17,831 bases of DNA, taken from NCBI GenBank assembly GCA_947440735.1, contig CANESA010000005.1:1-17831 (forward strand), read 5' to 3'. The translations under genes were made by a program, and so were the position numbers. Under the pieces are notes generated by a model that made no database searches, had not been told where the DNA came from, and saw nothing but the letters and a program-made list of their open reading frames with translations. The stretch comes from Candidatus Nanopelagicaceae bacterium (GTDB lineage: Bacteria; Actinomycetota; Actinomycetes; Nanopelagicales; Nanopelagicaceae). This document shows positions 1-17,239 of this stretch, piece after piece. The stretch's first letter is position 1; every line of letters starts with the position of its first letter.

Positions 1-534
1 GGAGTCACCGAACCTGGTGGCAAATCAGATATCTACCATCTAGGTGGTGGCCTTGAGATACATGAATACGCCCACATCGCACAGGCAATGCAATTCATCG
101 GTAAACAAAAAGATGATCAGAATTTCAATTACTTACCACGATGGTTTATTGAAGGTCATGCACATATTGCAGGAAATACTGGGTCAGCAAAAACATTTGA
201 GGAGTATTTAAAGAATCGTGGTCAATGGCTTAGCACCTCGCCAAATCAAGAGATTAAAAGCTTTGAACCAATAGATGTGGAACGCTTTTACGCAGCCCTA
301 ATGCCCGGAAAGTACAACGCAGAGATGTTTGGCTATGTCTACACTATTGGATACATCACAATGGAATGTCTAGTTGCGTTAAAGGGCATTGATTCACCAA
401 CTGAGTTAATTGTGCAAGTATCAAACGGTCTAACATTCGAAGAGGCGTTTGCAAAAGTGTATGGAATCAGCTGGAATGAAGCCTCACCAATACTGGCTAA
501 GACCGTTTCCCAAATATTCTTAGCGCGTGGTTAG
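1..534 (+). CDS. Secreted-type HExxH (gluzincin-like) metallopeptidase paralogue, 5' end outside window
   Basis: The reading frame is open from base 1, so this is the C-terminal 177 residues of a longer protein; the first internal ATG at 88 is not the true start, because the zinc motif lies before it. HEYAH is encoded at 61-75. The third-ligand region follows 26 residues later as WFIEGHAH, with the Glu codon at 151-153. This resembles the Peptidase_MA-like gluzincin arrangement, HExxH then W-x-x-E-G-x-A-E, but the usual A-E here is A-H. The C-terminus (TFEEAFAKVYGISWNEASPIL) aligns clearly with that of the protein at 2010-3278 ([21 protein letters not shown]), so they are paralogues. The next gene starts 2 bp after its stop, which suggests an operon. 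I infer a zinc protease; the substrate is unknown. The signal peptide and N-terminal module expected from the relatives lie outside the window. Confidence 0.75.
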   Translation, partial: GVTEPGGKSDIYHLGGGLEIHEYAHIAQAMQFIGKQKDDQNFNYLPRWFIEGHAHIAGNTGSAKTFEEYLKNRGQWLSTSPNQEIKSFEPIDVERFYAALMPGKYNAEMFGYVYTIGYITMECLVALKGIDSPTELIVQVSNGLTFEEAFAKVYGISWNEASPILAKTVSQIFLARG

Positions 535-536
535 AT

Positions 537-1742
537 ATGAAGAATAAATTTCTTTCCAGGATCTTAGTATTTTCGTTCTTTATATTATTCTTATCTTCTC
601 CACCGAGCCATTCTGCAATTAAATCTGGTGACGCGTGTAAAAAATTAGGCATCACCGCGACCGCAAGTGGTAAGAAATATGTATGCGTAAAGAGTGGCAA
701 AAAACTTGTGTGGAATAAAGGCGTGGTGGTTTCTACACCAAATTCAGATCCATCAAGCTCTTTAAACTTTGCCAAAAGATGGAATGCGACTGGCTCTTCA
801 GCGATCAAAATTATGGAAAAAGCATTTCCTGCTAAACCCTCGGCCTTTCCAAAAGTAGAGTTGACTTGGCGATATTCAGATACAGTTAACAACAAGATTA
901 AGGAAGAAATAACTAAGCAATATTTAGAGAATATCGAATTTTGGAGTGCATACACGAAAATTGACGCACCCTTACAAGTAATTGTTGGCACTTTAGATGA
1001 CATAAAATTCATTTGTAAGTGGCGAGATTCCCACTTACAAATGAATGCTGCTAACTGCGAAAGTAATTTTCGCACAGACAAGCAAAGAGTATGGGATGCT
1101 CACACAACACAGGGAAATGGTAAAGCAACCGATTTTTACTTTATGACAGAGCCTTCGATCTTGACAGAAATCGACTTTTTGCCACGAGTTGCCCATGAAT
1201 TTTTTCATAACGTCCAAAATGCCCAAACAGATAAGTACAAATCATCATTTCCATGTTGGGTTGAAGAGGGGGGTGCTGAATACTTTGGCATTCTTGTGAC
1301 AAGTAAAGGAAATCCTGAAACATTCATAAAGATGAGGCAATTTGCAGTCGCACTTAAGTCTAATAAAACAAATCTTTTCAGCTCAAAGGATTACTGGAGG
1401 GATTATCTATTGTCAGCGGATGTGACTTCCGTGAAACCTAACTCTGATAGTTGGGGTTGCGCCGCGTTTCAAAATACAGGTCTTTACGGAAATATCCTCC
1501 TTGCCACTGAGTATTTACATCAGCAGCTTGGAATTGCTGGAGTACTGGCCCTCTACGGTGATACCGGAACCATTGGATGGGATAAGGCGATAGAAAAGGC
1601 ATTCAAAAAATCAAAAGCTGAAATTTATGATGACATTGCTTCGTATATGCTGACAGAGTTTCAAATCGCGGCCAAGCAAGACTGGGCACGACCGAATTGC
1701 TCAATGCAAGGCCGAGTACTTCAATGTGCCAGTGGTCCATGA
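537..1742 (+). CDS. Secreted HExxH (gluzincin-like) metallopeptidase paralogue with N-terminal two-cysteine module
   Basis: A protein of 401 residues. Residues 1-27 form a signal peptide: basic MKNKF, a hydrophobic core, then SHSA, with no lipobox cysteine. Residues 28-62 form a small module with C34 and C50 (C-x15-C) ending in [12 protein letters not shown], shared with the protein at 2010. The core has HEFFH at 220-224 and WVEEGGAEYF at 241-250, with E244 the expected third zinc ligand, as in Peptidase_MA-type gluzincins. Additional cysteines (C160, C174, C240) fit an extracytoplasmic protein. The ATG lies 2 bp after the stop of the upstream paralogue with no good ribosome-binding site, so it is probably translationally coupled. 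Residues 157-170 are encoded by a perfect 16-bp inverted repeat. Base composition is visibly richer in A and T than the core genes downstream. Peptidase activity is inferred from the motif; the substrate is unknown. Confidence 0.8.
   Translation: MKNKFLSRILVFSFFILFLSSPPSHSAIKSGDACKKLGITATASGKKYVCVKSGKKLVWNKGVVVSTPNSDPSSSLNFAKRWNATGSSAIKIMEKAFPAKPSAFPKVELTWRYSDTVNNKIKEEITKQYLENIEFWSAYTKIDAPLQVIVGTLDDIKFICKWRDSHLQMNAANCESNFRTDKQRVWDAHTTQGNGKATDFYFMTEPSILTEIDFLPRVAHEFFHNVQNAQTDKYKSSFPCWVEEGGAEYFGILVTSKGNPETFIKMRQFAVALKSNKTNLFSSKDYWRDYLLSADVTSVKPNSDSWGCAAFQNTGLYGNILLATEYLHQQLGIAGVLALYGDTGTIGWDKAIEKAFKKSKAEIYDDIASYMLTEFQIAAKQDWARPNCSMQGRVLQCASGP
1007..1046. repeat. Perfect 16-bp inverted repeat inside a coding sequence
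   Basis: The left arm ATTCATTTGTAAGTGG (1007-1022) and right arm CCACTTACAAATGAAT (1031-1046) are exact reverse complements separated by 8 bases (cgagattc). The repeat lies wholly within the HExxH gene at 537-1742, where it encodes residues 157-170, and keeps the reading frame. It would form a strong hairpin in the mRNA or a cruciform in DNA. No T-tract follows, so it is not a standard terminator. Confidence 0.9.
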
Positions 1743-1800
1743 ACCCAGAGTTAAACATCTTTGCTCTGTTTAAAAAGTCGGACAATCGCCTATTTTCTAA

Positions 1801-1819
1801 GTGGGTTGTGAGGGACTCG
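1801..1819 (-). repeat. att-like 19-bp duplicate of the tRNA-Lys(CTT) 3' end
   Basis: GTGGGTTGTGAGGGACTCG at 1801-1819 is identical to 3391-3409, which covers bases 56-73 of tRNA-Lys (T-loop to discriminator) plus one flanking base. Identity stops on both sides, and the rest of a tRNA is absent here. This is what a tyrosine recombinase leaves when an element integrates at the 3' end of a tRNA gene. The gene-free stretch around it (1743-2009) otherwise holds only a 12-bp perfect palindrome, CGGATATATCCG at 1858-1869, and nothing else I recognise. Confidence 0.8.
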
Positions 1820-2009
1820 TTATCAAACCTTCAAACCATTGCCTTTGACCCACTATGCGGATATATCCGTTCTTGACTCATCTCCAATATTAGGGATTGC
1901 CAGTGACAAAACAAGGGGATTGGAAGATATGTAAGCCAAATTGGGAGGTAAGAGCAGAAAAGTTTGCTCAAAATCTCAAATGACTTGATCTCCCCACTAC
2001 CCTTTTGGA

Positions 2010-3278
2010 ATGCAGATCAGGGGGAGTCTCGCCAAGGGATTGTTAATTGCCCTTGCCATCTCCCTGATTCCTGTGGCTGCCGTTTCTGCCCAAAAGATTG
2101 TTCCTGGAAGTACCTGCAAAGTTTTGAAACAAAAAGTCGTTTATCTGAAAAAGACATACACCTGTACGAAATCAGGCAAGAAGTTGGTTTGGAATAAAGG
2201 CGTTGCTGTAAAGAAGCCAACACCAACACCAACAACAACACCAACACCAACACCAACACCAACACCAACACCAACACCAACACCAACGCCAACGCCAACG
2301 CCAACGCCAACGCCAACGCCAACGCCAACACCAACACCAACAGTTGTGAATCTGACTTTCGACAATCTTTATGAAAACAGGGCTGATATTTCTTATTCAG
2401 TGTGGAAAAAGACTTCTGATTTGATTAAAGAGAGCAGCAGCAAAGCAGGTCAGATTTCAATTTTCACCGGACCAAATACAAAAACTTATTTTGACGATTA
2501 TTCCTATGCGGTTAGTCAGGTCTCGAAAATGTTTCCAAGTAAGCCAGAAGCGAGAGAGGTACTTGTGATTCGCTATGCTTTCAAAGACTTGGAATGGGCA
2601 GAAAACATTGCGAAAACTAAGTTATCCTCGATTGATTACAATCAAATTTTTCGTTGGGAGAATGGCCCAATTACCAAGAGTAATTGTGATTCAATAACTC
2701 AGAATTGCAGGGGTTCAAAGCAGATCACTCCTTCAAGTGGAATTGCAGTTGTTTTACAAGGATTAGAAGAGAAAATTACCCAAGACAAGACTGGAACAAT
2801 TCGTTTCACTACCGGAATGTTGGAAGCGCACGAGTATTTCCATTCGTTACAACGGATTCCAATTATGGACAGGGGTGTGGAAGTTTGGCCTCATGCTTGG
2901 TGGCGAGAAGGAAGTGCCGAATGGGTCCAAAATATGAGCATAAGTTTTCAGAATTTTCCACAGTATAAAAAGTACTTAGTTGATGATTGCTACTACGCAT
3001 GTAACAACATGACGGCATTGCAGATCGAAGAGTTTCTGAATAATGCTTACGACAATTATCTACCATCTAAGTTTGACTCGTGGTTGAATTATTCTTTGGG
3101 CAGTCATGTAGTTGAACTTTTGGTTGCAATTAAAGGTCCAGATGTATTGATAACCATGTATGAAGAAATGGGTAAGGGTTTAAAGTTTGATGATGCCTTT
3201 AATAAAATATTTGGTCTTGCTTGGAAGGAATCAATTCCTATTCTTGCTAAGACCATCCACGCAAACCTGCAAGGATAA
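2010..3278 (+). CDS. Secreted HExxH (gluzincin-like) metallopeptidase paralogue with Pro-Thr repeat linker
   Basis: A protein of 422 residues. The ATG at 2010 is chosen because it opens a clean signal peptide (about residues 1-27, basic N-terminus, hydrophobic core, VSA cleavage) and an in-frame stop lies upstream at 1986; the ribosome-binding site is weak. Residues 28-65 are the two-cysteine module (C36, C52; C-x15-C) ending in [12 protein letters not shown], as in the gene at 537. Residues 70-111 are an almost pure Pro-Thr linker. The catalytic-type domain has HEYFH at 274-278 and WWREGSAEW around 298-306, with E300 the probable third zinc ligand. The C-terminus matches the truncated protein at 1-534. 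It is the only gene between the tRNA-Lys-derived direct repeats. The architecture (signal, small module, flexible linker, enzyme) suggests an exported protein held at or acting on the cell surface. The substrate is unknown and proteolysis is inferred from motifs only. Confidence 0.8.
2217..2342 (+). repeat. Hexanucleotide microsatellite encoding a 42-residue Pro-Thr linker
   Basis: Twenty-one consecutive six-base units encode Pro-Thr, one of them altered to Thr-Thr near the start. All prolines use CCA. Threonine uses ACA except in one central block (2286-2324), where seven consecutive Thr codons are ACG. The block pattern suggests growth by slippage or unequal exchange of two unit types. Changes of one unit keep the reading frame. 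Confidence 0.95.
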
Positions 3279-3300
3279 ATTGAGTCAAGAGATCAAATAC

Positions 3301-3365
3301 TGGATATAAAGGTTTGGCAGGTATATCCACTATTCAAGGGTTTGATATACATCCAATTTTTGGAT
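3301..3365. other. Intergenic inverted repeats between the HExxH gene and tRNA-Lys
   Basis: Two inverted repeats sit in the 113-bp gap: TGGATATA (3301-3308) with TATATCCA (3322-3329), and ATCCAA (3351-3356) with TTGGAT (3360-3365) around a three-base loop. Neither is followed by a convincing T-tract, so terminator function is doubtful. The core ggatatatcc also appears as a palindrome near the other direct repeat (1858-1869), so these could be recombination accessory sites, but this is speculative. Confidence 0.35.
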
Positions 3366-3391
3366 CTATACCTTAGATATAACTACATATG

Positions 3392-3464
3392 TGGGTTGTG
3401 AGGGACTCGAACCCCCGACCCAGGCATTAAGAGTGCCTTGCTCTACCAACTGAGCTAACAACCC
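3392..3464 (-). tRNA. tRNA-Lys(CTT)
   Basis: On the minus strand a 73-base cloverleaf can be folded. The acceptor stem is GGGTTGT with ACAACCC and discriminator A. The D arm begins GCTCAGTTGG, the anticodon stem AGGCA/TGCCT encloses loop CTCTTAA with anticodon CTT, and the T arm has TTCGAGT. The 3' CCA is not encoded. Its 3' 18 bases plus one flanking base recur at 1801-1819, so the gene has probably served as an integration site and was restored by the incoming copy. Confidence 0.95.
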
Positions 3465-3489
3465 ATTCAAACGTTCGAATGTTTGAATG
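3464..3489. promoter_or_regulatory. Inverted repeat, possible operator between tRNA-Lys and the secreted HNH gene
   Basis: CATTCAAAC (3464-3472) and GTTTGAATG (3481-3489) are exact reverse complements around GTTCGAAT. Read as octamers, three abutting units appear: ATTCAAAC (a reversed GTTTGAAT), GTTCGAAT and GTTTGAAT. The site lies directly upstream of the tRNA-Lys 5' end and 65 bp before the HNH start, so it could affect either. The 8-base spacer does not match the 4-base spacer of actinobacterial LexA boxes. The regulator is unknown. Confidence 0.4.
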
Positions 3490-3553
3490 CAGAGCAGACC
3501 CTATCAGGGCGATTGCCCTTGATTTGCCACCTGCCACGCGTAATCATAGAGAT

Positions 3554-4234
3554 ATGAGTCGGTGGGAAATCAGGCTAGCCATAGGGCTAATGGGGCTCTT
3601 TACTGTCTCGACAATTCCGCACTTAGCCCAGGCAACGACTTTTACTGCAGCAACTGAGGTAACGGCTTCTTCGGCTCTCTCTACATTGGCCGTTAAAGGT
3701 CGAGCGCCGAAGACGGGATACGACCGAGATGCGCTCTTCGGAGGTTGGGCCGATCCTGATGGCAATGGTTGCGATGCTCGTAATGATGTTCTTGCACGAG
3801 ACCTCACCAATAAAGTATTTGGAACAGGCCGCGATAAATGCTTAGTTCTTTCTGGAACCCTCATAGATCCATATTCTGGGAAAAAGTTAGATTTCACACG
3901 AGGCCAGGGAACGAGCACTCTAGTTCCGATAGATCACGTGGTTGCAGTGTCAGATGCGTGGCAGAAGGGCGCATTTAAATGGGATGCAGTCACCCGAGTG
4001 CAGTTTTACAACGATCCACTTAATCTCAAAGCCACTCAACAAAGCCTGAATTCGCAGAAGAGAGATGGTGATGCTGCGACATGGCTACCGCCACTTAAGA
4101 GTTATAGATGTACCTATGTGGCACAGCAGATTGCTGTCAAAGCAAAGTATCTAATCTGGGTTACGAAAGCGGAGAAAGAAGCGATGGCACGAATACTCAG
4201 TGCATGTCCAAAACAGTTATTGCCACAACAATAA
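3554..4234 (+). CDS. Secreted HNH-type nuclease (DUF1524/GmrSD C-terminal-like family)
   Basis: A protein of 226 residues. The ATG at 3554 is preferred over the upstream in-frame ATG at 3479 because it starts a normal signal peptide (about residues 1-27, ending AQA) and because the upstream start falls inside an inverted repeat. The mature part follows the pattern of the actinobacterial secreted HNH family: GYDRDALFGGW (55-65), D-x-D-G-N-G-CD near 68-74, C96, SGTLIDPYSG (100-109), the nuclease motif IDHVV (126-130, D127 and H128), then NDPLN (143-147), N156 and WLPP (167-170) with YRC. DHV with the downstream asparagines is the expected betabeta-alpha metal site. I infer DNA (or RNA) degradation outside the cell, perhaps for nucleotide or phosphate salvage. 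Its stop lies 3 bp from the stop of the convergent ppa gene. Confidence 0.75.
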   Translation: MSRWEIRLAIGLMGLFTVSTIPHLAQATTFTAATEVTASSALSTLAVKGRAPKTGYDRDALFGGWADPDGNGCDARNDVLARDLTNKVFGTGRDKCLVLSGTLIDPYSGKKLDFTRGQGTSTLVPIDHVVAVSDAWQKGAFKWDAVTRVQFYNDPLNLKATQQSLNSQKRDGDAATWLPPLKSYRCTYVAQQIAVKAKYLIWVTKAEKEAMARILSACPKQLLPQQ

Positions 4235-4237
4235 CTA

Positions 4238-4723
4238 TTAGTGGCTTTCCTTGTATCGCTTGTATGAGGCGTTAATTTCTAATTCGGCCTCGTCGTGACC
4301 AACCCATTCCCCGCCTTGTACAGACTTTCCAGGTTCTAGGGTTTTGTAGACTTCAAAGAAGTGTTTGATTTCAGAGAGTTCATAGGCAGGAACATCACTG
4401 AGATCTTGTAGATAAGACTTACGAACATCACCGGCTGCAACACAGAGCAGCTTGTCATCTCCACCCGCCTCATCTGTCATGTTGAGCATTCCGATTACAC
4501 GACATGAAACAACGCAGCCAGGAAATGTTGGTTCGTCCAACATGATGAGGGCATCAAGTGGATCGCCATCTAACGAGAGGGTGTTTTTAACAAAGCCATA
4601 GTCATAGGGATAGCGAGTGGATGTGAAGAGCATGCGATCGAGGCGAACTTCGCCAGTCGTGTGGTTGATTTCGTATTTGTTTCGTGACCCTGCGGGAATT
4701 TCAACGACGACATCGAAGATCAT
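4238..4723 (-). CDS. ppa: Inorganic pyrophosphatase (family I)
   Basis: A 161-residue soluble enzyme that hydrolyses pyrophosphate to two phosphates, pulling biosynthetic reactions forward. The family I signature is clear: EIPAGSRNKYE (8-18) supplies substrate-binding Arg and Lys, YPYDYGF (38-44) follows, and DGDPLD (52-57) holds the metal-binding aspartates D52, D54 and D57. Near the C-terminus, KHFFEVYKTLEPGK contains the conserved Tyr-Lys pair. Length fits bacterial family I enzymes (about 160-180 residues). The gene is monocistronic in appearance, with tRNA-His upstream on the same strand and a convergent nuclease gene 3 bp from its stop. Nothing unusual is seen. Confidence 0.95.
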   Translation of the reverse strand: MIFDVVVEIPAGSRNKYEINHTTGEVRLDRMLFTSTRYPYDYGFVKNTLSLDGDPLDALIMLDEPTFPGCVVSCRVIGMLNMTDEAGGDDKLLCVAAGDVRKSYLQDLSDVPAYELSEIKHFFEVYKTLEPGKSVQGGEWVGHDEAELEINASYKRYKESH

Positions 4724-4769
4724 ATGGATGGCACTTTCTTTAGGGTGGTGCTTGGAGTTGAAAACTTGG

Positions 4770-4843
4770 GGTGAACGACGGGGCTCGAACCCGCGACATC
4801 TCGGACCACAACCGAGTGCTCTACCAGCTGAGCTACGCCCACC
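4770..4843 (-). tRNA. tRNA-His(GTG)
   Basis: The minus strand gives acceptor stem GTGGGCG with CGTTCAC (two G-U pairs), the anticodon stem CTCGG/CCGAG with loop TTGTGGT (anticodon GTG), and T loop TTCGAGC. The extra G at position -1 (4843) faces discriminator C73 (4770), the identity pair of histidine tRNAs. CCA is encoded at 4767-4769. Confidence 0.95.
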
Positions 4844-4858
4844 ATATGCTGTGCGGGC

Positions 4859-5449
4859 TTAGTCTACCTTTTCCGCAGGCGGATTCTGCCCCTGATTTTG
4901 CGCTTCGATGAAGACGTTGCTGCGGTAGTACTTGAGTTCTTCGATCGAATCTTGAATATCGCCAAGGGCTCGATGGTTGCCAGTCTTTGCCGGGGCTGCG
5001 AAGTAGATCTTTGGATACCAGCGGCGGGCTAACTCTTTAATGCTTGAGACATCGACGGTGCGATAGTGCAGGTACTCGTTTAGACGTGACATGTCTCGGG
5101 CGATGAAGTTGCGATCGACTGAGACTGAGTTGCCGGCTAGAGGAGATTTTCCCGCAATCGTGCCAGCGGATTCGAGGTAAGCCAAGATCGCATCTTCCGC
5201 CGCTTCAACCGTGATGCCCTCAGGAATCTCAGTGATCAGCCCTGAGGCGGTATGCATCTGGGTGACAAACTCATTCATCTCGGTTAACTGCTCAGGCGTA
5301 GCCTTGATAACCAGATCGATACCCTCACCAATCACGTTGAGCTCGGAGTCGGTGACAAGGACGGCGATCTCGACAAGCACATCCTTTTCGAGGGAGAGGC
5401 CCGTCATCTCGCAATCGATCCAGATCAGATGGGGAAGTTCGGTAGCCAT
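4859..5449 (-). CDS. orn: Oligoribonuclease (DEDDh 3'-5' exoribonuclease)
   Basis: A 196-residue cytoplasmic enzyme that degrades 2-5-mer RNAs and linear dinucleotides such as pGpG to mononucleotides. The DEDDh catalytic set is visible: D12 and E14 in WIDCEMTGL, D112 in NSVSVDRNFI, and H159 and D164 in NHRALGDIQDSIEELKYY. The length and the C-terminal helix after the last motif match the Orn family rather than longer epsilon-type exonucleases. The ATG begins MATELPHLIWIDCEMTGL, placing the first motif at the usual distance from the N-terminus. It is divergent from the pst operon with about 109 bp between starts, where the first PHO box lies. tRNA-His is downstream on the same strand. Confidence 0.95.
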   Translation of the reverse strand: MATELPHLIWIDCEMTGLSLEKDVLVEIAVLVTDSELNVIGEGIDLVIKATPEQLTEMNEFVTQMHTASGLITEIPEGITVEAAEDAILAYLESAGTIAGKSPLAGNSVSVDRNFIARDMSRLNEYLHYRTVDVSSIKELARRWYPKIYFAAPAKTGNHRALGDIQDSIEELKYYRSNVFIEAQNQGQNPPAEKVD

Positions 5450-5486
5450 AGCGCGCAGTTTAGGGGGTTAGGGCGACCGAGCGTGA

Positions 5487-5519
5487 ATTCAGGATGTGTT
5501 CACCTTCTGTTCACCTTGT
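5487..5519 (+). promoter_or_regulatory. PHO box (PhoP operator) upstream of pstC
   Basis: Two direct repeats with exact 11-bp period, GTTCACCTTCT (5498-5508) and GTTCACCTTGT (5509-5519), match the actinobacterial PhoP box, which is built of 11-bp units of GTTCACC type. A degenerate third unit, ATTCAGGATGT, precedes them (5487-5497). The site lies 40 bp before the pstC start and predicts activation under phosphate limitation. Confidence 0.85.
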
Positions 5520-5558
5520 AGCCTCGCTTACTCTGCGGACAGGCGACAAGATTCCCGC

Positions 5559-6536
5559 GTGAGCAACACTCTTCTTCCAGCCCCACGCGAGCTCGTTACC
5601 AAGCCTCGTCGTTCCGACCAACTTTTCCGTGTGATTGTGACCGCGGGTGGAATGTCATCACTAATTATTCTCGGCTTGATCTTCGCTTTTCTCGCGTTTA
5701 GAGGTTTTGGGGTAATTCGTACAGAAGGTCTTGGATTCATCATCAATTCAAATTGGGATGTAATTGAAGACGAGAACTCTGACATTATTTCGCAAGATTA
5801 CGGTCTAGCTGCGATGCTCGTGGGAACAATTCTTTCTGCAACCATCGCTGTAGTTATCGGTGTACCAATTGCAGTTCTCAGCGCACTCTTTCTCGAGTTT
5901 TATTCAGGAAAGAAAGTTCGCGCATTTCTTGTTGCCCTCATCGATTTAATGGCTGCATTTCCATCTATCCTCTTTGGTTTGTGGGGATTTATGGTCCTTA
6001 TGCCAAGTGCGGAGTATTGGGCAAAGTTACTAAACAAATATTTAGGTTGGATCCCAATCTTTGAAGTTCCATTCCCGTTCTTTACGCGCTCGCCATTTAT
6101 TGCAGGTATGGTCTTGGCGATCATGATTATTCCAATCTGTACTTCGGTTTGTCGAGAAGTTTTCTCACAAACTCCTTTGGATCGAATTCAGGCTGCTTAT
6201 GCTTTGGGTGCAACCAGACTGGCGATGATTCGTGCCGTTGTTATTCCGTTCGGTCGTGGTGGAATTATTGGTGGTGCGATGTTGGGCCTTGGTAGAGCGA
6301 TGGGCGAAACCGTTGCAGTATTTACGGTTCTGAATATCGTCTACCAGGTAAACTGGCAAGTGCTCTTTGGTGCAGGTGGAAATATTGCATCGCTCATTCT
6401 TCTCAAATTCGGTGAGGCCGATCGAGAAGAAGTAAATGCCCTCATGGCAGCAGGTCTAGTGCTCTTTCTTCTCACGCTTCTCGTTAATGCTGTTGCAAAT
6501 ATTTTGGTGAGTCGCCTTGGAAAGACAGGTCGCTAA
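5559..6536 (+). CDS. pstC: Phosphate ABC transporter permease PstC
   Basis: A membrane subunit of the PstSCAB high-affinity phosphate importer. GTG 5559 is preferred as start (325 residues, MSNTLLPAPREL); the frame also opens at GTG 5496, but that start lies next to the PHO box, where transcription should not yet have begun. Hydrophobic segments occur at about residues 29-50, 84-110, 120-145, 180-200, 230-260 and 290-315. The coupling (EAA-type) loop with ALGATRLAMIRAVVIPFGRGGI and the following GRAMGETVAV motif are typical of PstC. No ribosome-binding site is visible before the GTG; a CAAGAT-like -10 about 7 bp upstream would allow a leaderless mRNA, which is speculative. The stop codon abuts the pstA ATG. 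Confidence 0.93.
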   Translation: MSNTLLPAPRELVTKPRRSDQLFRVIVTAGGMSSLIILGLIFAFLAFRGFGVIRTEGLGFIINSNWDVIEDENSDIISQDYGLAAMLVGTILSATIAVVIGVPIAVLSALFLEFYSGKKVRAFLVALIDLMAAFPSILFGLWGFMVLMPSAEYWAKLLNKYLGWIPIFEVPFPFFTRSPFIAGMVLAIMIIPICTSVCREVFSQTPLDRIQAAYALGATRLAMIRAVVIPFGRGGIIGGAMLGLGRAMGETVAVFTVLNIVYQVNWQVLFGAGGNIASLILLKFGEADREEVNALMAAGLVLFLLTLLVNAVANILVSRLGKTGR

Positions 6537-7598
6537 ATGACTATAACTTCTCAATCAACAGAGCTAAAACCTGGACGCCCGTGGGAGCCAACAGCTAAAG
6601 AGCGCGGCCAGAAGCTGCTGAATTTTCTTATTTCACTTGCACTCTCATTTATACTTTTATTTACAACAGGTTTAAATGGAAAGTTAGGCTGGGTTATCGC
6701 CTTCTTCATATCTTTTCTCACTGTCACTTTCGTCGCTGAGTACCGTCGAACAGGTCGACCAGCAGCGCAAGACAGTATTTTGACGAGCGTCTCACGATTT
6801 GCAATCTTCCTAGCCATCATTCCGATCGTGAGCATTCTTCTGACAGTAATCTCAAAGGGCTGGCGAGGATTACATTGGGGACTATTCACCCAAGATATGG
6901 CTGAAGCAACAGTTAATGATCCAATTCAAAATGGCGGAATGTTGGCAGCTATTACCGGCACAACGATCATGGTTGGAATTGCACTCATCATCTCTTTGCC
7001 AATCTCAATATTGACAGCGCTTTATCTCACAGAGATTAAAGGTAAATTTGCTCGACCAGTGCGCTTCTTAGTGCAAGCGATGTCTGGTGTGCCTTCAATT
7101 GTCGCAGGACTATTTATTCTTTCAAGTATCGTCTATCCACTTACGGGGCAACGTAACGGCCTGATGGGTGGTATGGCTCTTGCCATCCTCATGATTCCAA
7201 CTGTGGCGCGCACAGCCGAAGAAGTTCTTTTGCTGATTCCGAACGACCTTCGTGAGGCAGGTTTAGCCCTGGGTGCAACACAGTGGCGAACTGTTGCAAT
7301 GGTGGTGGTTCCTGCCGTAAAGAGCGGATTGATCACAGCGATTATTCTGGGTGTCGCTCGCGTAATCGGTGAGACTGCTCCAATCATTCTTGTCAGTGGT
7401 GGAGGAGAGGCTAATAACCTCAACCCAGTCTCTGGTCCTATGGGCTCTATTCCTTACTATGTGTGGAAATCATTCTTACTCGGCGGAACTGAAGAGTCGA
7501 CACAACGCACTTGGGCGGGCCTTCTAGTGCTCCTCGTGTGGGTTCTCTTACTCTTTACCATCGCCCGTTACATCTCTTCGAGATCCCAGAAAAGGTAA
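6537..7598 (+). CDS. pstA: Phosphate ABC transporter permease PstA with N-terminal extension
   Basis: The second membrane subunit of the phosphate importer, 353 residues. Its ATG immediately follows the pstC stop, so the two are translated together. The C-terminal 270 residues carry the PstA core: a periplasmic-side segment with NDPIQNGGMLAAITGT, a coupling loop with AEEVLLLIPNDLREAGLALG, and RVIGETAPIILVSG followed by the PIYYVW-like region (SIPYYVWKSF). It is about 55 residues longer than the E. coli protein. The extra part (residues 1-80) contains two additional hydrophobic segments (about 29-46 and 50-67) before the first canonical helix at about 87-108. Longer PstA forms occur in actinobacteria. 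pstB follows 9 bp downstream. Confidence 0.93.
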   Translation: MTITSQSTELKPGRPWEPTAKERGQKLLNFLISLALSFILLFTTGLNGKLGWVIAFFISFLTVTFVAEYRRTGRPAAQDSILTSVSRFAIFLAIIPIVSILLTVISKGWRGLHWGLFTQDMAEATVNDPIQNGGMLAAITGTTIMVGIALIISLPISILTALYLTEIKGKFARPVRFLVQAMSGVPSIVAGLFILSSIVYPLTGQRNGLMGGMALAILMIPTVARTAEEVLLLIPNDLREAGLALGATQWRTVAMVVVPAVKSGLITAIILGVARVIGETAPIILVSGGGEANNLNPVSGPMGSIPYYVWKSFLLGGTEESTQRTWAGLLVLLVWVLLLFTIARYISSRSQKR

Positions 7599-7607
7599 GT
7601 AAAGACA

Positions 7608-8486
7608 ATGACTGACAATAACCAAGGAGATAAACCAGAGATGAAGACATCGACTACACCACACTCTTTGGCAGATGTTGCATCTGCACGCGCGCCTAAG
7701 ACACCTGGCACCGCGCCACTTGGTTCTGGACTTGAGGCACGAGCAGTCAATGCTTGGTTTGGTAGCAAGCATGTCCTCAAAGATGTGACCTTAGATTTTG
7801 CCGCAGGAACTGTGACTGCACTCATCGGTCCATCAGGATGCGGAAAGTCAACATTTATTCGAACACTCAACCGTATGCACGAGTTTATTCCAGGTGCCGG
7901 GCTAGCTGGTGAAGTTCTCCTTGGCGGGAAAGATATCTATGCATCAGGTACTGATGTCACAAAGATTCGTCTTCGCGTCGGTATGGTTTTTCAAAAGCCA
8001 AACCCATTTCCTTCAATGACTATCGGTCAGAATGTTTTGTCAGGTTTGAAACTGGCCCAACTCAAAGTCAGTAACACAGATGACCTTCTTGAAGAGTGCC
8101 TCACACGTGCTGGACTTTGGGAAGAATCAAAGGATCGTCTCAATGAGCATGCGAGTGCGCTTTCAGGCGGACAACAGCAGCGTCTCTGTATCGCACGTTC
8201 GCTAGCGGTGCGTCCTGAGGTGCTCTTGATGGATGAGCCATGTTCGGCCCTTGACCCGGGATCAACTTTCCGCATTGAGCAGACAATTGCAGAGCTCTCA
8301 CAATCCATGACGATCGTGATCGTTACCCACAATATGCAGCAGGCAGCCCGCGTCTCTGATTACTCGGCTTTCATGCTCTCAGATGGTGGACCAGGCGAAT
8401 TGATCGAAGTTGCGCCTACCAACGAGCTCTTCTCGCGCCCACGGGATAAGCGCACTGAGGATTACGTCACCGGAAGATTCGGTTAA
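7608..8486 (+). CDS. pstB: Phosphate ABC transporter ATP-binding protein PstB
   Basis: The ATPase of the phosphate importer. From ATG 7608 it has 292 residues: Walker A GPSGCGKST (74-82), Q-loop FQKPNPFP (Q129), signature LSGGQQ (175-180), Walker B VLLMDEP (205-211) and H-loop H231. The run RTLNRMHEFIPGA after Walker A is diagnostic for PstB. Residues 1-42 are a low-complexity N-terminal extension absent from ordinary 250-260-residue PstB proteins. A second ATG at 7641 is preceded by AAGGAGA and may be the real start, which would remove 11 residues. It lies 9 bp after pstA. A second PHO box follows the gene, so pstS can be transcribed separately. Confidence 0.95.
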   Translation: MTDNNQGDKPEMKTSTTPHSLADVASARAPKTPGTAPLGSGLEARAVNAWFGSKHVLKDVTLDFAAGTVTALIGPSGCGKSTFIRTLNRMHEFIPGAGLAGEVLLGGKDIYASGTDVTKIRLRVGMVFQKPNPFPSMTIGQNVLSGLKLAQLKVSNTDDLLEECLTRAGLWEESKDRLNEHASALSGGQQQRLCIARSLAVRPEVLLMDEPCSALDPGSTFRIEQTIAELSQSMTIVIVTHNMQQAARVSDYSAFMLSDGGPGELIEVAPTNELFSRPRDKRTEDYVTGRFG

Positions 8487-8512
8487 CAATCAACCTCAAT
8501 TATTTGAGATAG

Positions 8513-8534
8513 GTTCAACTGTTGTTCACCAAGT
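8513..8534 (+). promoter_or_regulatory. PHO box (PhoP operator) upstream of pstS
   Basis: Two 11-bp direct repeats, GTTCAACTGTT (8513-8523) and GTTCACCAAGT (8524-8534), match the PHO box before pstC in sequence and spacing. GTAGCC follows the repeats at both sites. The box lies 88 bp before the pstS start, in the pstB-pstS gap, and predicts a separate phosphate-starvation promoter for the binding protein. Confidence 0.8.
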
Positions 8535-8621
8535 CGTAGCCATCTAGACCATCACCTTCAGTACTTTCGAGCCCTCACAACATGTGAGTCCCAACCTCGG
8601 GAAGTATCTGAAAGGTAGAGA

Positions 8622-9761
8622 ATGAAACTCTCGAAGAAAATTGGAGTCGTTGCACTAGTCTCAGGACTTTTTGTAAGCGTCGCTCCGTCAGCATTTGCTT
8701 ATAACCTCACTGGAACAGGCGCCTCCTTCCCTGCGCAGATGATCGAAGAGTGCAAGGTTCTACTTGCACAGAAGGGTGAACACTCACTCACTTATGCAGC
8801 TCTTGGTTCAGGAGCTGGCCGCGATGGGTCTGACAAGCAGGTTGGCCATATCTGGTTCTCAGATACAGCTCATACAGGCTCGACAGCACGAGCATCTTTG
8901 GTACACATCCCAGCTGCAGCTGCACCAATTGCAGTGCTGCACAATTTGCCAGCAAAGACTCAGCTTTATTTATCTCCAGTAACAGCTGCAAAGATCTTTT
9001 CGGGAGAAATCTCACGTTGGAATGATCCAGCGATCGCTAAGGATAACAATCGCTCCGTCACTGAAGTTATTTACAAGAAGGATCGTAACGGCGATATCAT
9101 CAAGGATAAGGCTGGAAAGGCTGTTGTACTTCGCACAGCAAACAAGAACATCACATACACACTTCCAAATCAGCCAATCACAGTTGTATACCGCTCTGAT
9201 AAGTCCGGTACATCAGGAAACTTCACAGCATGGTTGCGTGGAGTTGCTCCAACAATATGGACAAAGCCACAGAACGACACATTCGTGACAGCATTCCCAG
9301 GCAATATCAATGCGGGTGGAAATATCGGACGCGTTGTAGGAGCTAGCTCTTCTACTGGTGTTGCCCAGCTTGCTGGAAAGACTAAGTACTCAATTACTTA
9401 TGCTGAAGTTTCATACGGTTCAAAGTACAACTTGAAGGCAGCCGCAATCGGCAATGCATCAGGTAACTTTGCTCTACCAAACGGTGCAAACACTGCAGCA
9501 TTCCTTGCATCATCAAAGGTTGACTCAAAGGGAATCTTCACATTTGACTATGCAACTAAAGAGCCAGGTGCATACACACTTGGAATCATTACCTACATGC
9601 TTGGTGACTCTGACTTCAAAGATAAGGCAGCAGTTCCAGCAATCAAGGCTTGGGCAAACTTGGTTATCTCCAAGGATTGCACAGACCGCGCACCAGACTT
9701 CATTCCAATTGAAGGTGACTTGCGAAAGCTTGCAGAAGCTGCAATCGCAAAGATCGGATAA
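8622..9761 (+). CDS. pstS: Phosphate-binding protein PstS (non-lipoprotein type)
   Basis: The extracytoplasmic solute-binding subunit that delivers phosphate to PstCAB, 379 residues. Residues 1-26 are a signal peptide (KLSKK, hydrophobic core, SAFA cleavage). The mature protein starts YNLTGTGASFPAQM, the PstS N-terminal phosphate loop. SGAGRDGS (about 63-70) and SDKSGTSGNFTAWL (about 192-205) are further phosphate-loop motifs of the family. There is no lipobox cysteine; the only cysteines seen, C44 and one near residue 352, could form a disulfide. The ATG has a good ribosome-binding site (GAAAGG about 8 bp upstream). It is last in the operon, has its own PHO box and ends at a strong terminator, an arrangement that allows much higher expression than the permeases. 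Confidence 0.93.
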   Translation: MKLSKKIGVVALVSGLFVSVAPSAFAYNLTGTGASFPAQMIEECKVLLAQKGEHSLTYAALGSGAGRDGSDKQVGHIWFSDTAHTGSTARASLVHIPAAAAPIAVLHNLPAKTQLYLSPVTAAKIFSGEISRWNDPAIAKDNNRSVTEVIYKKDRNGDIIKDKAGKAVVLRTANKNITYTLPNQPITVVYRSDKSGTSGNFTAWLRGVAPTIWTKPQNDTFVTAFPGNINAGGNIGRVVGASSSTGVAQLAGKTKYSITYAEVSYGSKYNLKAAAIGNASGNFALPNGANTAAFLASSKVDSKGIFTFDYATKEPGAYTLGIITYMLGDSDFKDKAAVPAIKAWANLVISKDCTDRAPDFIPIEGDLRKLAEAAIAKIG

Positions 9762-9781
9762 AACTTCCCAATCTCGAGGGT

Positions 9782-9823
9782 AAAAAAGAACGGCCAGGCC
9801 AACCAGCCTGGTCGTTCTTTTTT
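9782..9823. terminator. Rho-independent terminator after pstS, probably bidirectional
   Basis: An 18-base arm (9782-9799) pairs with 9806-9823 except for one G-U pair, around a six-base loop (caacca). The stem ends in six A residues on one side and six T residues on the other, so it can terminate pstS on the plus strand and tRNA-Arg on the minus strand. It is the only convincing intrinsic terminator in the window. Confidence 0.95.
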
Positions 9824-9850
9824 GTAATGAGGTTCTGTTGAGGTACTGAG

Positions 9851-9924
9851 TGCGCCTGGCAGGAATCGAACCTGCGACAACCCGCTTAGAAGGCGGGTGC
9901 TCTATCCGACTGAGCTACAGGCGC
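9851..9924 (-). tRNA. tRNA-Arg(TCT)
   Basis: The 74-base minus-strand cloverleaf has acceptor stem GCGCCTG/CAGGCGC with discriminator A, anticodon stem CCCGC/GCGGG around loop CTTCTAA (anticodon TCT, reading AGA), and T arm GCAGG-TTCGATT-CCTGC. The 3' CCA is not encoded. It is divergent from ettA and convergent with pstS across the shared terminator. Confidence 0.95.
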
Positions 9925-9977
9925 CTGCAGGTGTCGTCTGATTACTATTCTAACGTCTCAACTATTAAGGTGTGACA

Positions 9978-11645
9978 ATGGCTGAATTCATTTACACAAT
10001 GAAAAAGACGCGTAAAGCGCACGGTGACAAGGTCATTCTCGACGATGTCACCTTGATGTTCCTTCCAGGTGCCAAGATCGGCGTTGTAGGCCCTAACGGT
10101 GCAGGTAAGTCAACGGTCTTGCAGATCATGGCAGGCCTTCAACAACCTTCTAATGGCGAGGCGTACCTAACGCCTGGATTTACAGTCGGAATTTTGCTGC
10201 AGGAGCCAAAGCTTGATGAGAGCCGAAACGTTCTTGAGAATGTTCAAGATGGTGTGCGCGAGACGATGGATATGTTGGCGCGCTTTAATGCAATTTCGGA
10301 TGAGATGTCGAGCCCAGATGCTGATTACGACACCTTGCTGGCTGAGATGGGAACGTTGCAAGAGCAACTCGATCATCGCAACGCGTGGGAGATCGACTCA
10401 CAACTCGAGCAGGCGATGGATGCACTTCGCTGCCCACCAGGGGATGCTGATGTCAGCGTGTTATCGGGTGGAGAAAAGCGCCGTGTAGCTCTCTGCAAAC
10501 TTCTATTGGAAGCTCCAGATCTTCTACTTCTTGATGAGCCAACGAACCACCTCGATGCTGAATCTGTTTTGTGGCTAGAACAACATTTGCAGAAGTATCC
10601 AGGCGCAGTTGTAGCGATCACCCACGATAGATATTTCTTGGATAACGTCGCAGAGTGGATTCTTGAACTCGACCGCGGTCGCGCATTTCCATATGAAGGA
10701 AATTATTCGACCTACCTAGAGACAAAGTCGGCTCGTCTTAAGGTCGAGGGTCAGAAGGATGCCAAGCGCGCAAAGCGTCTGACAGAAGAGCTTGAATGGG
10801 TTCGTCAGAATGCAAAGGGTCGCCAGACAAAGTCAAAGGCGCGTCTTGCACGTTATGAAGAGATGGCCGCTGAAGCTGACAAGATGCGCAAGCTCGACTT
10901 CGAAGAGATTCAAATTCCACCTGGTCCACGCCTTGGAAATGTTGTTGTAGAAGTAGAAAACCTTGTAAAGGGATTCGGTGATCGCGTACTTATTGATGGT
11001 CTCTCGTTTACTCTTCCACGTAACGGAATTGTTGGCGTCATCGGCCCTAACGGTGCCGGTAAGACAACGCTCTTTAAGACAATCCTTGGTCTCGAGCCAG
11101 CTGATTCAGGCGTTGTGAAGATCGGTGAAACGGTAAAGATTTCATATGTTGATCAATCACGTAGCGGCATCGATCCAAAGAAGTCGCTCTGGGAAGTTGT
11201 TTCAGATGGTCTTGATTTCATGAAGGTCGGACAAGTTGAAATGCCATCTCGCGCATACGTTGCTGCATTTGGATTTAAAGGTCCAGATCAGCAGAAGCCT
11301 GCAGGCGTCTTATCTGGTGGAGAACGTAACCGTCTGAATCTTGCAATGACTCTCAAGCAAGGTGGAAACCTCTTGCTTCTTGATGAGCCAACGAACGACC
11401 TTGATGTGGAAACACTTGGTTCACTTGAGAACGCACTTCTTGAATTTCCAGGGTGTGCCGTAGTGATCTCTCACGATCGCTGGTTCCTGGACCGCATCAC
11501 GACACATATCTTGGCTTATGAAGGTGATTCACAGTGGTTCTGGTTTGAAGGTAACTTCGAATCGTATGAGGCAAATAAGATCGAACGTTTGGGACCAGAG
11601 GCAGCTCGTCCTCATCGTGCGACGTATAGAAAGCTGACACGATAA
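9978..11645 (+). CDS. ettA: Energy-dependent translational throttle protein EttA (ABC-F)
   Basis: A soluble ABC-F ATPase that binds the ribosomal E site and gates the start of elongation according to energy status. ATG 9978 is chosen over GTG 9972 because MAEFIYTM matches the EttA N-terminus and AAGG lies 7 bp upstream; this gives 555 residues, the length of E. coli EttA. Two ABC domains are visible: Walker A GPNGAGKST (38-46), signature LSGGEK (162-167) and LLLLDEPTNHLD (182-193); then GPNGAGKTT (356-364), LSGGER (445-450) and LLLLDEPTNDLD. A charged helical linker (about 245-305, with WVRQNAKGRQTKSKARL) is the P-site tRNA interaction motif, and residues 95-140 form the arm. The stop overlaps the next ATG (TAATG), indicating an operon with the thioesterase. 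Confidence 0.93.
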   Translation: MAEFIYTMKKTRKAHGDKVILDDVTLMFLPGAKIGVVGPNGAGKSTVLQIMAGLQQPSNGEAYLTPGFTVGILLQEPKLDESRNVLENVQDGVRETMDMLARFNAISDEMSSPDADYDTLLAEMGTLQEQLDHRNAWEIDSQLEQAMDALRCPPGDADVSVLSGGEKRRVALCKLLLEAPDLLLLDEPTNHLDAESVLWLEQHLQKYPGAVVAITHDRYFLDNVAEWILELDRGRAFPYEGNYSTYLETKSARLKVEGQKDAKRAKRLTEELEWVRQNAKGRQTKSKARLARYEEMAAEADKMRKLDFEEIQIPPGPRLGNVVVEVENLVKGFGDRVLIDGLSFTLPRNGIVGVIGPNGAGKTTLFKTILGLEPADSGVVKIGETVKISYVDQSRSGIDPKKSLWEVVSDGLDFMKVGQVEMPSRAYVAAFGFKGPDQQKPAGVLSGGERNRLNLAMTLKQGGNLLLLDEPTNDLDVETLGSLENALLEFPGCAVVISHDRWFLDRITTHILAYEGDSQWFWFEGNFESYEANKIERLGPEAARPHRATYRKLTR

Positions 11646-12046
11646 TGAAGTATCACAATCAACAATTTGTTCGCTGGGATGACATCGACGCATTTGGCCA
11701 TGTCAATAATGCGAAGTACTTGATTTACGCCCAAGAAGCCCGATTCCAATGGTCGTGGTTTCAATTTGTTGAGCGCAATGAAAAGCCAACAATTGTTGAG
11801 ATGGTTGTGGCTCGCGCCGAAGTTGATTTTGTAGCGCCGATTTATGAAGGTGGCTCATTTGTTGATGTTCATATCTGGGTCGAGGCCATCGGCACATCAT
11901 CATTTACTCTCAATTATGAGATCAGCTCCAAAGGTGTTTTGCATGCACGAATTAAGACGGTGCAGGTAGCCATCTCACTGGAGACCAAGAAATCACGCCC
12001 TCTCTCAGATACAGAACGCGAGTTCTTAAAAGAATATTTACTGTGA
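11645..12046 (+). CDS. Acyl-CoA thioesterase, 4HBT/hotdog fold
   Basis: A 133-residue single-domain hotdog protein. The N-terminal motif WDDIDAFGHVNNAKYL (11-26) holds the expected catalytic Asp (D15) and the H-V-N-N of the FadM/YbgC-like 4-hydroxybenzoyl-CoA thioesterase family; VDFVAPIYEGGSFVDVHIWVEAIG supplies the conserved beta-strands. It probably hydrolyses acyl-CoA in the cytoplasm; the chain length cannot be predicted. Its ATG overlaps the ettA stop by one base. Its TGA overlaps a GTG (GTGA), the former start of a deleted GH13 gene, so it was once followed by a translationally coupled neighbour. Confidence 0.88.
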   Translation: MKYHNQQFVRWDDIDAFGHVNNAKYLIYAQEARFQWSWFQFVERNEKPTIVEMVVARAEVDFVAPIYEGGSFVDVHIWVEAIGTSSFTLNYEISSKGVLHARIKTVQVAISLETKKSRPLSDTEREFLKEYLL

Positions 12047-12166
12047 CACCTAGAGATCAGCGAGAATGCTGGCGCGATGCCGTCACTTACAAGATCTACA
12101 TCTGCTCCTTTGCAGATGGTAATGGTGATTCCAACCGATACAACTGCCTGGCTACGACTTAAGTGA
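12043..12166 (+). pseudogene. Remnant of a GH13 alpha-glucosidase/alpha-amylase gene (internal deletion)
   Basis: From GTG 12043, overlapping the thioesterase stop as GTGA, the frame reads MTPRDQRECWRDAV, then TYKIYICSFADGNGDS, then unrelated residues to a stop at 12160-12162. W-R-D-A-V-x-Y-x-I-Y-x-x-S-F-A-D-G-N-G-D is the start of GH13 alpha-glucosidases and related enzymes (usual form [22 protein letters not shown]). In a second frame, shifted by +1, 12128-12166 reads IPTDTTAWLRLK then stop. This resembles GH13 C-termini and its TGA overlaps the globin GTG at 12163. The simplest reading is that about 500 internal codons were lost, leaving both ends fused out of frame near 12115-12130. The GH13 N-terminal match is strong, while the C-terminal assignment is an inference from a short match. 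The 39-codon frame could still be translated as a peptide or act only as a spacer. Confidence 0.7.
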
Positions 12167-12537
12167 GTACCTTCTTTGATGAAATTGGGGGAGAGGCCTT
12201 CTTTACAGAGCTTGTCTCAGGATTCTATGCACGTGTTGCAACAGATCCAATTTTGCGCCCCATGTATCCGGAAAGTGATATGAAAGGTGCCGCTTGGCGC
12301 TTACAGAAATTTCTTGAACAATATTGGGGTGGACCTTCAACGTATTCGGAAGAGCGCGGACATCCACGGCTTCGTATGCGTCACGTTGGTTTCCATATCG
12401 ACCTTGCAGCACGTGATGCCTGGCTTGCCTGCATGATGGCAGCAATTGGTGATCTAGAGATGGAAGAAATTCTTCGAAATCAGTTAGTGAGCTATGTAGA
12501 GATGGCTGCACATTCGATGGTCAACCAACCGTCATAA
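12163..12537 (+). CDS. glbO: Group II truncated haemoglobin (trHbO)
   Basis: A 124-residue haem protein binding O2, thought to act in oxygen/NO handling or redox chemistry near the membrane. It is strikingly like mycobacterial GlbO: YPESDMKGA (35-43) with the CD1 Tyr at Y35, KFLEQYWGGP (49-58), TYSEERGHPRLRMRH (60-74) with proximal F8 His H74, and G8 Trp W87. The C-terminal YVEMAAHSMVN is also conserved. It begins at GTG 12163, overlapping the last codons of the GH13 remnant, and has no clear ribosome-binding site, so translation may depend on readers arriving from the remnant. Its stop is one base from the stop of the convergent mechanosensitive-channel gene. Confidence 0.93.
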   Translation: MSTFFDEIGGEAFFTELVSGFYARVATDPILRPMYPESDMKGAAWRLQKFLEQYWGGPSTYSEERGHPRLRMRHVGFHIDLAARDAWLACMMAAIGDLEMEEILRNQLVSYVEMAAHSMVNQPS

Positions 12538-12538
12538 C

Positions 12539-13081
12539 TTATTTCTTTGAGGCGTTACCCAAGGTAAGAATTTCACCGTTTCGGATATACCAAAGCGTTC
12601 CATCATCGGCGCGCACCGTTGTGATACGAAGCCCTACGCGTTCGACGACACCCTTAATTGTTAAAACATCTATGCGATCGCCAACTCCGTATTGATCTTC
12701 GATCAACATGAAAATTCCAGAGAGAATGTCGCGCACTAGCGTTTGTGCGCCAAGTCCGACTGCAACGCCAACAATTCCAGCAGATGCGATGACAGGTCCC
12801 AAATTAAATCCGAATTCTCCTAAGACCATTGCGGTGGCAATAATCCAGACCGCTGCGTTGAGAATCGATGTGAGAACAGAGCCGATTGTGCGGGCACGTT
12901 CTGCTTGTCGATGCGCCGTTCCAGGCCCTGGGCGAAGATCGAGAGTTGATAGACGGTTGACGGCTCGCGTGATGGCTCTATGGCCCAGCCATTGGGCGAC
13001 TACGGCCCCTGTCAGGACCGCGATGATGCGAAGTGGGGCCCCGCTTAGCCAATCGATTGCGGTCTGAATTTGCTCGTTCAT
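12539..13081 (-). CDS. Short MscS-type mechanosensitive ion channel
   Basis: A 180-residue membrane protein. The start MNEQIQTAIDWLSG (13081) is preferred to longer in-frame starts, which would extend into the leader of the divergent HNH gene (13212). Hydrophobic segments are at about 16-36 and 75-95. The pore helix and beta domain of MscS follow: ASAGIVGVAVGLGAQTLVRDILSGIF (about 100-125) with Gly/Ala packing, then MLIEDQYGVGDRI and a beta domain ending GTLWYIRNGEILTLGNASKK. It stops right after the beta domain and lacks the C-terminal alpha/beta vestibule of E. coli MscS; actinobacterial homologues are often short, so this may be normal. The likely role is release of solutes on hypo-osmotic shock. 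Confidence 0.85.
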   Translation of the reverse strand: MNEQIQTAIDWLSGAPLRIIAVLTGAVVAQWLGHRAITRAVNRLSTLDLRPGPGTAHRQAERARTIGSVLTSILNAAVWIIATAMVLGEFGFNLGPVIASAGIVGVAVGLGAQTLVRDILSGIFMLIEDQYGVGDRIDVLTIKGVVERVGLRITTVRADDGTLWYIRNGEILTLGNASKK

Positions 13082-13211
13082 AGACCAAAGGTACTTCACG
13101 AGGCAATAAAGGATGCAAGAAATTAACCTTGAAATACGCCGAAGTTGGTCGACCCTGGTGCAAGATAAGCCAATCGGCGCGAGCCACGCGCCTGACACAA
13201 CTGGAGCAGTC

Positions 13212-13727: not shown

Positions 13728-13746
13728 CTTCACTTACACTTACGCC

Positions 13747-13965
13747 ATGATTCATATGATCGCATCTGCACTTAACATGGGCTACAACGACGGTGGCGCA
13801 ATGCCAGGTGATTCACTCACCGCAGTGCAAACTTTCCTTTACTTTGTTGCAACACCGGTTGGACTTTTCCTCTTAATTTCGCTCCTAGTCGTTGTTGGAA
13901 CACGCGAGAAAAAGAAGACAGAGCCCGGCAAGAAGCCAAGCTCTGTCATCGATTCAATCGACTAA
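13747..13965 (+). CDS. Small single-pass membrane protein, function unknown
   Basis: A 72-residue protein starting at ATG 13747; a second in-frame ATG at 13756 is possible. It has a polar N-terminus with YNDGGAMPGDSL, one hydrophobic segment of about 25 residues (roughly 26-50: FLYFVATPVGLFLLISLLVV), then a basic tail TREKKK and a disordered end. The orientation is probably N-terminus outside and tail inside by the positive-inside rule. It starts 19 bp after the HNH gene and is probably co-transcribed with it. Its stop is 3 bp from the stop of convergent pepN. I do not recognise a named family; a function cannot be given. Confidence 0.7.
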   Translation: MIHMIASALNMGYNDGGAMPGDSLTAVQTFLYFVATPVGLFLLISLLVVVGTREKKKTEPGKKPSSVIDSID

Positions 13966-13968
13966 CTT

Positions 13969-16524: not shown

Positions 16525-16573
16525 TACTATCCTGTGAAATCAGGGGCTCATCCAATCATGTAAGAATGGGTCA

Positions 16574-17233: not shown

Positions 17234-17239
17234 TTGGTC

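Follow-up and report, generated by a model that had tools for sequence, protein, structure and literature searches.

Gene cassettes bounded by repeats of a tRNA 3' end were described previously in Ca. Actinomarinales (PMC7771536) and, at tRNA-Lys(CTT), in Ca. Methylopumilus (PMC10872708), according to the parts of these papers drawn on here. We analyzed a comparable arrangement in a stretch of 17,831 nucleotides, the window, from a Candidatus Nanopelagicaceae bacterium (GCA_947440735.1, contig CANESA010000005.1, positions 1 to 17,831), in which the last 19 bases of a tRNA-Lys(CTT) gene, referred to as the core, recur exactly at a core-to-core spacing of 1,590 bp and enclose one gene. The unit between the two cores is a real, repeat-bounded cassette that is very likely mobile. 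It belongs to a large cassette platform, undescribed as far as searched and representing a variant of the known tRNA-anchored additive island: a direct repeat of the tRNA 3' end stands at the far end and relatives carry differing cargo. A tyrosine recombinase beside the tRNA 3' end is missing from the window unit and is found in the loci L126 and L130 (Int1) and L131 and L215 (Int2).

The closest described systems share some of these features and differ in others. For the island fGI-2 of Methylopumilus, the consulted portions of the paper (Layoun et al. 2024, PMC10872708) give a content of 330 bp-42 kb with 1-63 genes of mostly unknown function; a freshwater habitat, streamlined genomes and tRNA-Lys(CTT) are common to both, whereas phylum and repeat sequence differ, and conserved left-end families, same-site integrases and near-identical cassettes in divergent genomes are not mentioned in the text consulted on fGI-2. 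The island fGI1 of Actinomarinales (Lopez-Perez et al. 2020, PMC7771536, excerpts) likewise occurs in streamlined aquatic actinobacteria, with transfer between genera of ca. 75% similarity; however, it belongs to a marine order and involves five tRNAs in an envelope-polysaccharide island, whereas here a single tRNA-Lys carries mostly one-gene units with conserved ends, one of them recurring at 99.7% identity in divergent hosts. The word "Integrase" has no occurrence in the main text of the fGI1 paper. Integrons and clusters of attC sites lacking integron-integrases (CALINs) resemble the units in having tandem cassettes of about one gene, mostly in one direction, at one anchor site and, probably, an enzyme encoded elsewhere (excerpts of PMC11389934, which deals with helper-dependent elements). 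Here, however, the anchor is a tRNA 3' end with the genes pointing towards it, the left ends appear to fold only weakly by their folding energy, and Int1 and Int2 are not IntI by NCBIfam. Tycheposons, as introduced in the same excerpts of PMC10872708, are large cargo transposons of 4-200 kb at tRNAs that encode a tyrosine recombinase; tRNA target, recombinase, cargo and streamlined planktonic hosts are alike, and the Int1/Int2 elements of 4.2-6.3 kb are of that order, whereas the window unit and 40 of the 41 other integrase-less units measure 0.56-2.2 kb and have no recombinase. Among the matches listed, no title or abstract reports such a system in Nanopelagicales, and the parts of PMC12381374, PMC11039613, PMC8430335 and PMC10202952 that were covered do not mention it.

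A repeat-bounded unit at tRNA-Lys(CTT)

The 19-mer GTGGGTTGTGAGGGACTCG occurs twice on the forward strand, starting at 1801 and 3391, and has no further copy on either strand of the window (Table 1). Since ARAGORN places the tRNA gene at 3391-3464 on the reverse strand, the repeat corresponds to the last 19 bases of tRNA-Lys(CTT). The cores enclose a single open reading frame (ORF) of 422 aa, overlapped only by a shorter one on the opposite strand (2017-2340), so that the duplication and the single gene between its copies, both proposed in the initial annotation of this DNA, hold. A chance match, which had been called negligible there, is indeed not what the counts suggest: the 19-mer is present in 138 of 296 family genomes and its reversed sequence in none, and the last 18 bases of every relative's own tRNA-Lys with up to two mismatches have 18 copies in 248 kb downstream of tRNA-Lys (58 loci), compared to zero for each of three control queries (reverse complement, reversed, complemented). 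In line with the claimed absence of an integrase, none was found in the window, where tblastn with Int1 and Int2 gave nothing below E 0.7 and the Pfam scan covered four of the listed ORFs.

Table 1. Features of the tRNA-Lys(CTT) locus, in window coordinates.
Feature	Position	Strand	Basis
tRNA-Lys(CTT) gene, insertion target	3391..3464	-	ARAGORN; Rfam RF00005 at 3392-3464, 71 bits
Core repeat, tRNA-borne copy (final 19 bases of tRNA gene)	3391..3409	-	exact match to 1801-1819
Core repeat, distal copy (end of first cassette and start of second unit)	1801..1819	-	exact 19-bp match
Type-A left end: conserved block adjoining core, probable attachment-site arm	1820..1912	-	alignment of 9 type-A ends; genome matches
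Conserved right end R1 beside tRNA 3' end	3282..3390	-	88% over 109 bp to L131 distal-core flank
Cargo gene: 422-aa predicted secreted protein with N-terminal Cys/Lys/Trp module, Pro-Thr linker, HExxH domain and downstream Glu	2010..3278	+	ORF list
Gene of second unit: 401-aa HExxH protein	537..1742	+	ORF list; 750-1818 93.7% identical to L010
Third HExxH-type gene, truncated by window start (listed ORF from 88)	1..534	+	sequence, ORF list

Relatives of the locus were collected by one scan with the neighbouring Orn protein, and the best 80 of 338 encoding stretches were taken as loci. tRNA-Lys was present in 58 of these, 45 of them reading at least 700 bp downstream, and in 13 of the 45 the tRNA 3' end recurs at least once, 0.25-4 kb away. 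In the family as a whole, 49 of 296 genomes contain at least two exact cores by a hand count, in which some cores lie at the ends of short contigs of metagenome-assembled genomes (MAGs) and duplicates are possible. Genome G095 has seven exact cores, five of them consecutive on one contig, and locus L115 holds five tandem copies in succession. This supports the earlier idea of repeated accretion at a hotspot, while the two further paralogues on which it was based reduce to one second unit that leaves the window at its start.

The loci fetched comprise 47 core-to-core intervals, of which 42 are without integrase, four (4.2-6.3 kb) encode a tyrosine integrase and one, of 42 bp, was set aside. The integrase-less units range from 562 to 4,181 bp, all except one being no longer than 2,156 bp, and some start at another core copy rather than at an intact tRNA. 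Among the 41 units having ORFs of at least 100 aa, 33 have exactly one, and in 37 the largest ORF faces the tRNA side (p=1e-7), these units not being fully independent because related cassettes are among them. Different units thus occur at the same kind of repeats, as had been predicted for relatives with other cargo. Moreover, the acceptor-stem allele is the same in both cores of 45 of 46 units and is mostly that of the host tRNA. The sole discordant unit, L092 (G042:C5), has C in its first core and host tRNA and A in its distal core, which is what a transfer between allele classes would leave. Placing the crossover from the allele was given up, the concordance being insufficient to position it.

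Conserved ends and exchange between genomes

About 100 bp before the distal core are conserved in three families of left ends, termed A, B and D, while the cargo alongside is unrelated; the window unit belongs to type A. Strong matches were defined by cuts chosen by eye (A, at least 123 bits; B, at least 130 bits; D, at least 93 bits), and two or three candidates were scored per genome, hence all counts are lower bounds. Type A has at least 15 strong matches in at least 14 of the 296 genomes, 14 of 15 extending through the end of the core. For type B there are at least 18 in at least 16 genomes, 17 reaching the last base and one stopping one base short, and for type D at least 20 in at least 17 genomes, all 20 reaching the last base. 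Twelve weaker type-A matches, seven of them reaching the core, were among the matches listed; the weaker type-B matches include cross-matches to type D, which resembles type B, and several that end before the core, as decayed ends would. In a fourth class, C, this place is taken by a longer tRNA stretch. A single array can hold more than one type (B-B-A in L041, D-B-D in L200). Some type-A units also have their right end in common, and R1 of the window is additionally 85% identical over 108 bp to one flank in L041, whereas the right ends beside the core are dissimilar among most B and D units. The 8-mers common to both ends were equalled in at most 6 of 200 shuffles for six of nine units and in at least 25 for the other three. 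When folding energies of the left ends were averaged for each type and strand over up to ten ends, the mean z values lay between -0.05 and -1.58, with single values down to -3.4 and type D negative throughout; folded attC-like sites are not supported by these energies, even though type D is mildly negative.

Several comparisons bear on mobility. L010 and L034 both match the second unit of the window, starting at the distal core and running outward, L010 at 93.7% identity over 1,073 bp and L034 at 91.9% over 521 bp. The first units of the three loci have only the core in common, and the part of the chromosome that matches on the tRNA side is 66-80% identical. A unit of 953 bp in L010, encoding a DUF5360 and a small multidrug resistance family protein, recurs in L201 at 99.7% identity over 935 bp. 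Apart from the common left end nothing further matches between L010 (9.7 kb) and L201 (14 kb) at E≤1e-10, and no other predicted proteins of at least 90 aa match at E≤1e-5; the Orn regions of the two bins share 58.6% protein identity over 186 residues and a neighbouring stretch 79.6% over 201. In L201 this unit stands behind a C-type copy and not behind an intact tRNA. In L125, a 1,607-bp unit starting at a C-type copy is followed by sequence that matches L028 directly behind its tRNA, with 98.2% identity over 545 bp.

Strains lacking exactly 1801-3390 had been named earlier as support. No empty site for the window's own unit turned up among the relatives compared, whereas a 4,158-bp Int1 element sits in L130 and is missing from L065, the two loci aligning at 78.7% over 3,479 bp on one flank and at 85.0% over 3,376 bp on the other. 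As a separate observation, similarity of the second unit to L010 breaks off at 750, within the 401-aa gene and close to where its N-terminal Cys/Trp module ends, as though the module served as an exchange point.

Recombinases and the explanations weighed

Integrase-bearing elements occupying the same site in other genomes agree with the original suggestion of site-specific integration at the tRNA-Lys 3' end. Both Int1 (251 aa, L126) and Int2 (317 aa, L131) have Phage_integrase domains (PF00589); against the integron integrase model TIGR02249, Int1, in three copies, and Int2 reach only 29-32 bits (cut-off 265). In L126 and L130, a distance of about 97 bp separates Int1 from the tRNA-Lys in front of it, and in L132 Int1 stands behind a partial copy. 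Int2 follows tRNA-Lys directly in L131 and, at 66% identity, in L215, and the L131 element terminates in a type-D left end. Relatives of Int1 (65-73%; clade L180, L181, L183, L184) stand behind tRNA-Arg(ACG/TCT) and those of Int2 (clade L216, L217, L169, L170, L174) behind tRNA-Val, so that similar cassette platforms may exist at these tRNAs.

The exact core also occurs in four viral records. L081, L083 and L084 carry it within the tRNA-Lys(TTT) of phages bearing tRNA genes. L081, a viral contig of 85 kb, has two copies spaced by 549 bp (8149-8167, 8698-8716), one in this tRNA and the other outside the listed tRNAs. In L082 (9497-10877), a phage contig without tRNAs, an identical core (A or C form) follows a Phage_integrase ORF by 45 bp and presumably represents attP for a tRNA-Lys.

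Taken together, we consider it likely that the window unit is a mobile gene cassette without an integrase of its own, inserted at the tRNA-Lys(CTT) 3' end by a tyrosine recombinase acting in trans. A cassette would combine its cargo, in most cases a single gene, with a left end of about 100 bp that adjoins the core. A circular cassette would recombine its own core with the tRNA 3' end, restoring the tRNA and setting the cassette beside it. Each insertion would move older cassettes outward, so that the units would be stacked with the youngest beside the tRNA. Action in trans, the circular form and the stacking order are what we infer from these comparisons. The Int1 and Int2 elements at the same site are the likely enzyme source for C- and D-type ends; for type A, the type of the window, no enzyme was found and none is assigned.

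Several observations weigh against this explanation. In 32 of the 45 relatives the DNA read contains no copy of the tRNA 3' end, and weaker A and B left-end matches often stop before the core. Within units having a type-A or type-B end, no intact integrase was present in the loci examined. PF00589 proteins occur in all 20 genomes searched, with exactly two in 12, and the complete genome G005 (IMCC19121), which has a type-A unit, encodes only two tyrosine recombinases, XerC- and XerD-like (XerC, 327 bits, cut-off 335; general Xer model and XerD, 319 bits, cut-off 330), and no Int1 match; an enzyme supplied in trans is therefore suggested. Viral contigs gave no match to the end motifs A, B and D, so that no carrier is known, and a viral one was set aside, the core-bearing phages either having their own tRNA-Lys(TTT) or, as L082, being of a different kind; on packaging of a phage satellite by a helper phage, the absence of these motifs says little. 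Moreover, neither a circular junction nor excision was seen, most genomes are MAGs, with the host divergence of L010 and L201 resting on binning, and homologous recombination between common ends could do part of the moving. A serine recombinase (G005:C1:904737-905225, open frame 568 aa) was noted in G005; as the common enzyme it was dismissed, PF00239 being found in one of 12 cassette genomes, namely G005.

Homologous recombination as the whole explanation, with cassettes taken up as linear DNA and exchanged by RecA via the ~100-bp ends and neighbouring genes and the tRNA repeat a long-standing scar left by integrase elements, appears unlikely to us. The left ends would be long enough as homology, similarity of the second unit to L010 stops within a gene, which resembles intragenic exchange, and the nearly uniform allele concordance is in line with it. 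However, the L010/L201 and window/L010 matches start at the core, left-end types are mixed in arrays while right ends of B and D units mostly differ, and the Int1 element occurs in L130 and not in L065 between matching flanks.

It is less probable still that the unit is the leftover of a larger integrase-bearing island after deletion, an alternative that the initial annotation had placed next to a passenger-only cassette. Decay of integrase elements at this site does occur, as Int2 fragments lie directly behind the core in G056, G095, G135 and G202. A passenger-only cassette nevertheless fits better because 41 of 42 integrase-less units fall in 0.56-2.2 kb and many have end sequences in common despite different cargo; in addition, one unit is nearly identical in two genomes, and the window contains no trace of Int1 or Int2. 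That the repeat is no attachment site at all and instead conserved for another role, for example as a regulator or terminator derived from a tRNA and placed before the cargo genes, seems very improbable. In 37 of 41 units the left end does precede the largest gene, whose promoter it might contain. However, the copies carry the acceptor-stem allele of the preceding core in 45 of 46 units, end where the tRNA ends and also bound integrase elements, and no Rfam family reaches its gathering score over the distal copy in the window.

Cargo and significance of the platform

In the 422-aa protein, the motif HEYFH follows the Pro-Thr linker. Homologues number 1,701 at E≤0.001 (7,994 candidates scored), and H274, E275, H278 and E300 are invariant across 48 aligned sequences. 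No Pfam family scored above its cut-off and no relative of solved structure was found by sequence at E≤0.01. Given the invariant HExxH motif and downstream glutamate among homologues, we regard a secreted metallopeptidase of the Peptidase_MA kind as the probable identity of the protein, as far as its sequence tells. The linker DNA (2217-2340) is a near-perfect short repeat, and homologues vary in length (P0001, 390 aa, 90% identical), perhaps via this repeat.

Similar proteins are frequent in the cassettes: 14 of 51 cassette proteins of at least 100 aa contain HExxH, compared with a mean of 0.21 and a maximum of 2 in shuffles, and 11 fit the pattern of the N-terminal Cys...Trp module. A Pfam scan of 39 of the 51 together with the window's second gene identified trypsin four times, TMEM175 twice, and isochorismatase, beta-lactamase-family, acetyltransferase and other domains once each. 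Anti-phage cargo was considered and discarded, with a weak PADLOC match (E 8.6e-4) in one of 40 scanned proteins.

Among the surroundings, a protein with a GmrSD C-terminal domain is encoded at 3554-4234 on the opposite side of tRNA-Lys, and the distance from tRNA-Lys to tRNA-His varies among relatives. Rfam detects a tRNA truncated by the window end (17779-17831, reverse strand) that is absent from the ARAGORN list. The closest matches of the window's Orn protein (88-91%) come from actinobacterial MAGs, one of them named Ca. Planktophila, which suggests a host from this freshwater group.

In a broader view, Nanopelagicaceae might run an integron-like system without an integron, comprising a tRNA-Lys landing platform, three exchangeable left-end modules of ~100 bp as recombination sites of the cassettes, small tRNA-specific tyrosine recombinases acting in trans and single genes, often for secreted HExxH proteins, that circulate almost unchanged between distant members, a proposal for which we see the chances as evenly balanced. 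Two candidate enzymes and defined sites, each a core with a left end of type A, B or D, make the movement of integrase-less tRNA cassettes directly testable. For Methylopumilus and Actinomarinales, the findings suggest that the tRNA-repeat cassettes could be satellites of integrases specific for tRNAs. Nanopelagicaceae are among the most abundant freshwater bacteria, having streamlined genomes and yet high microdiversity. If the proposal is true, a compact platform of this kind at a single tRNA would account for the gain and exchange of individual genes at almost no burden of mobile elements.
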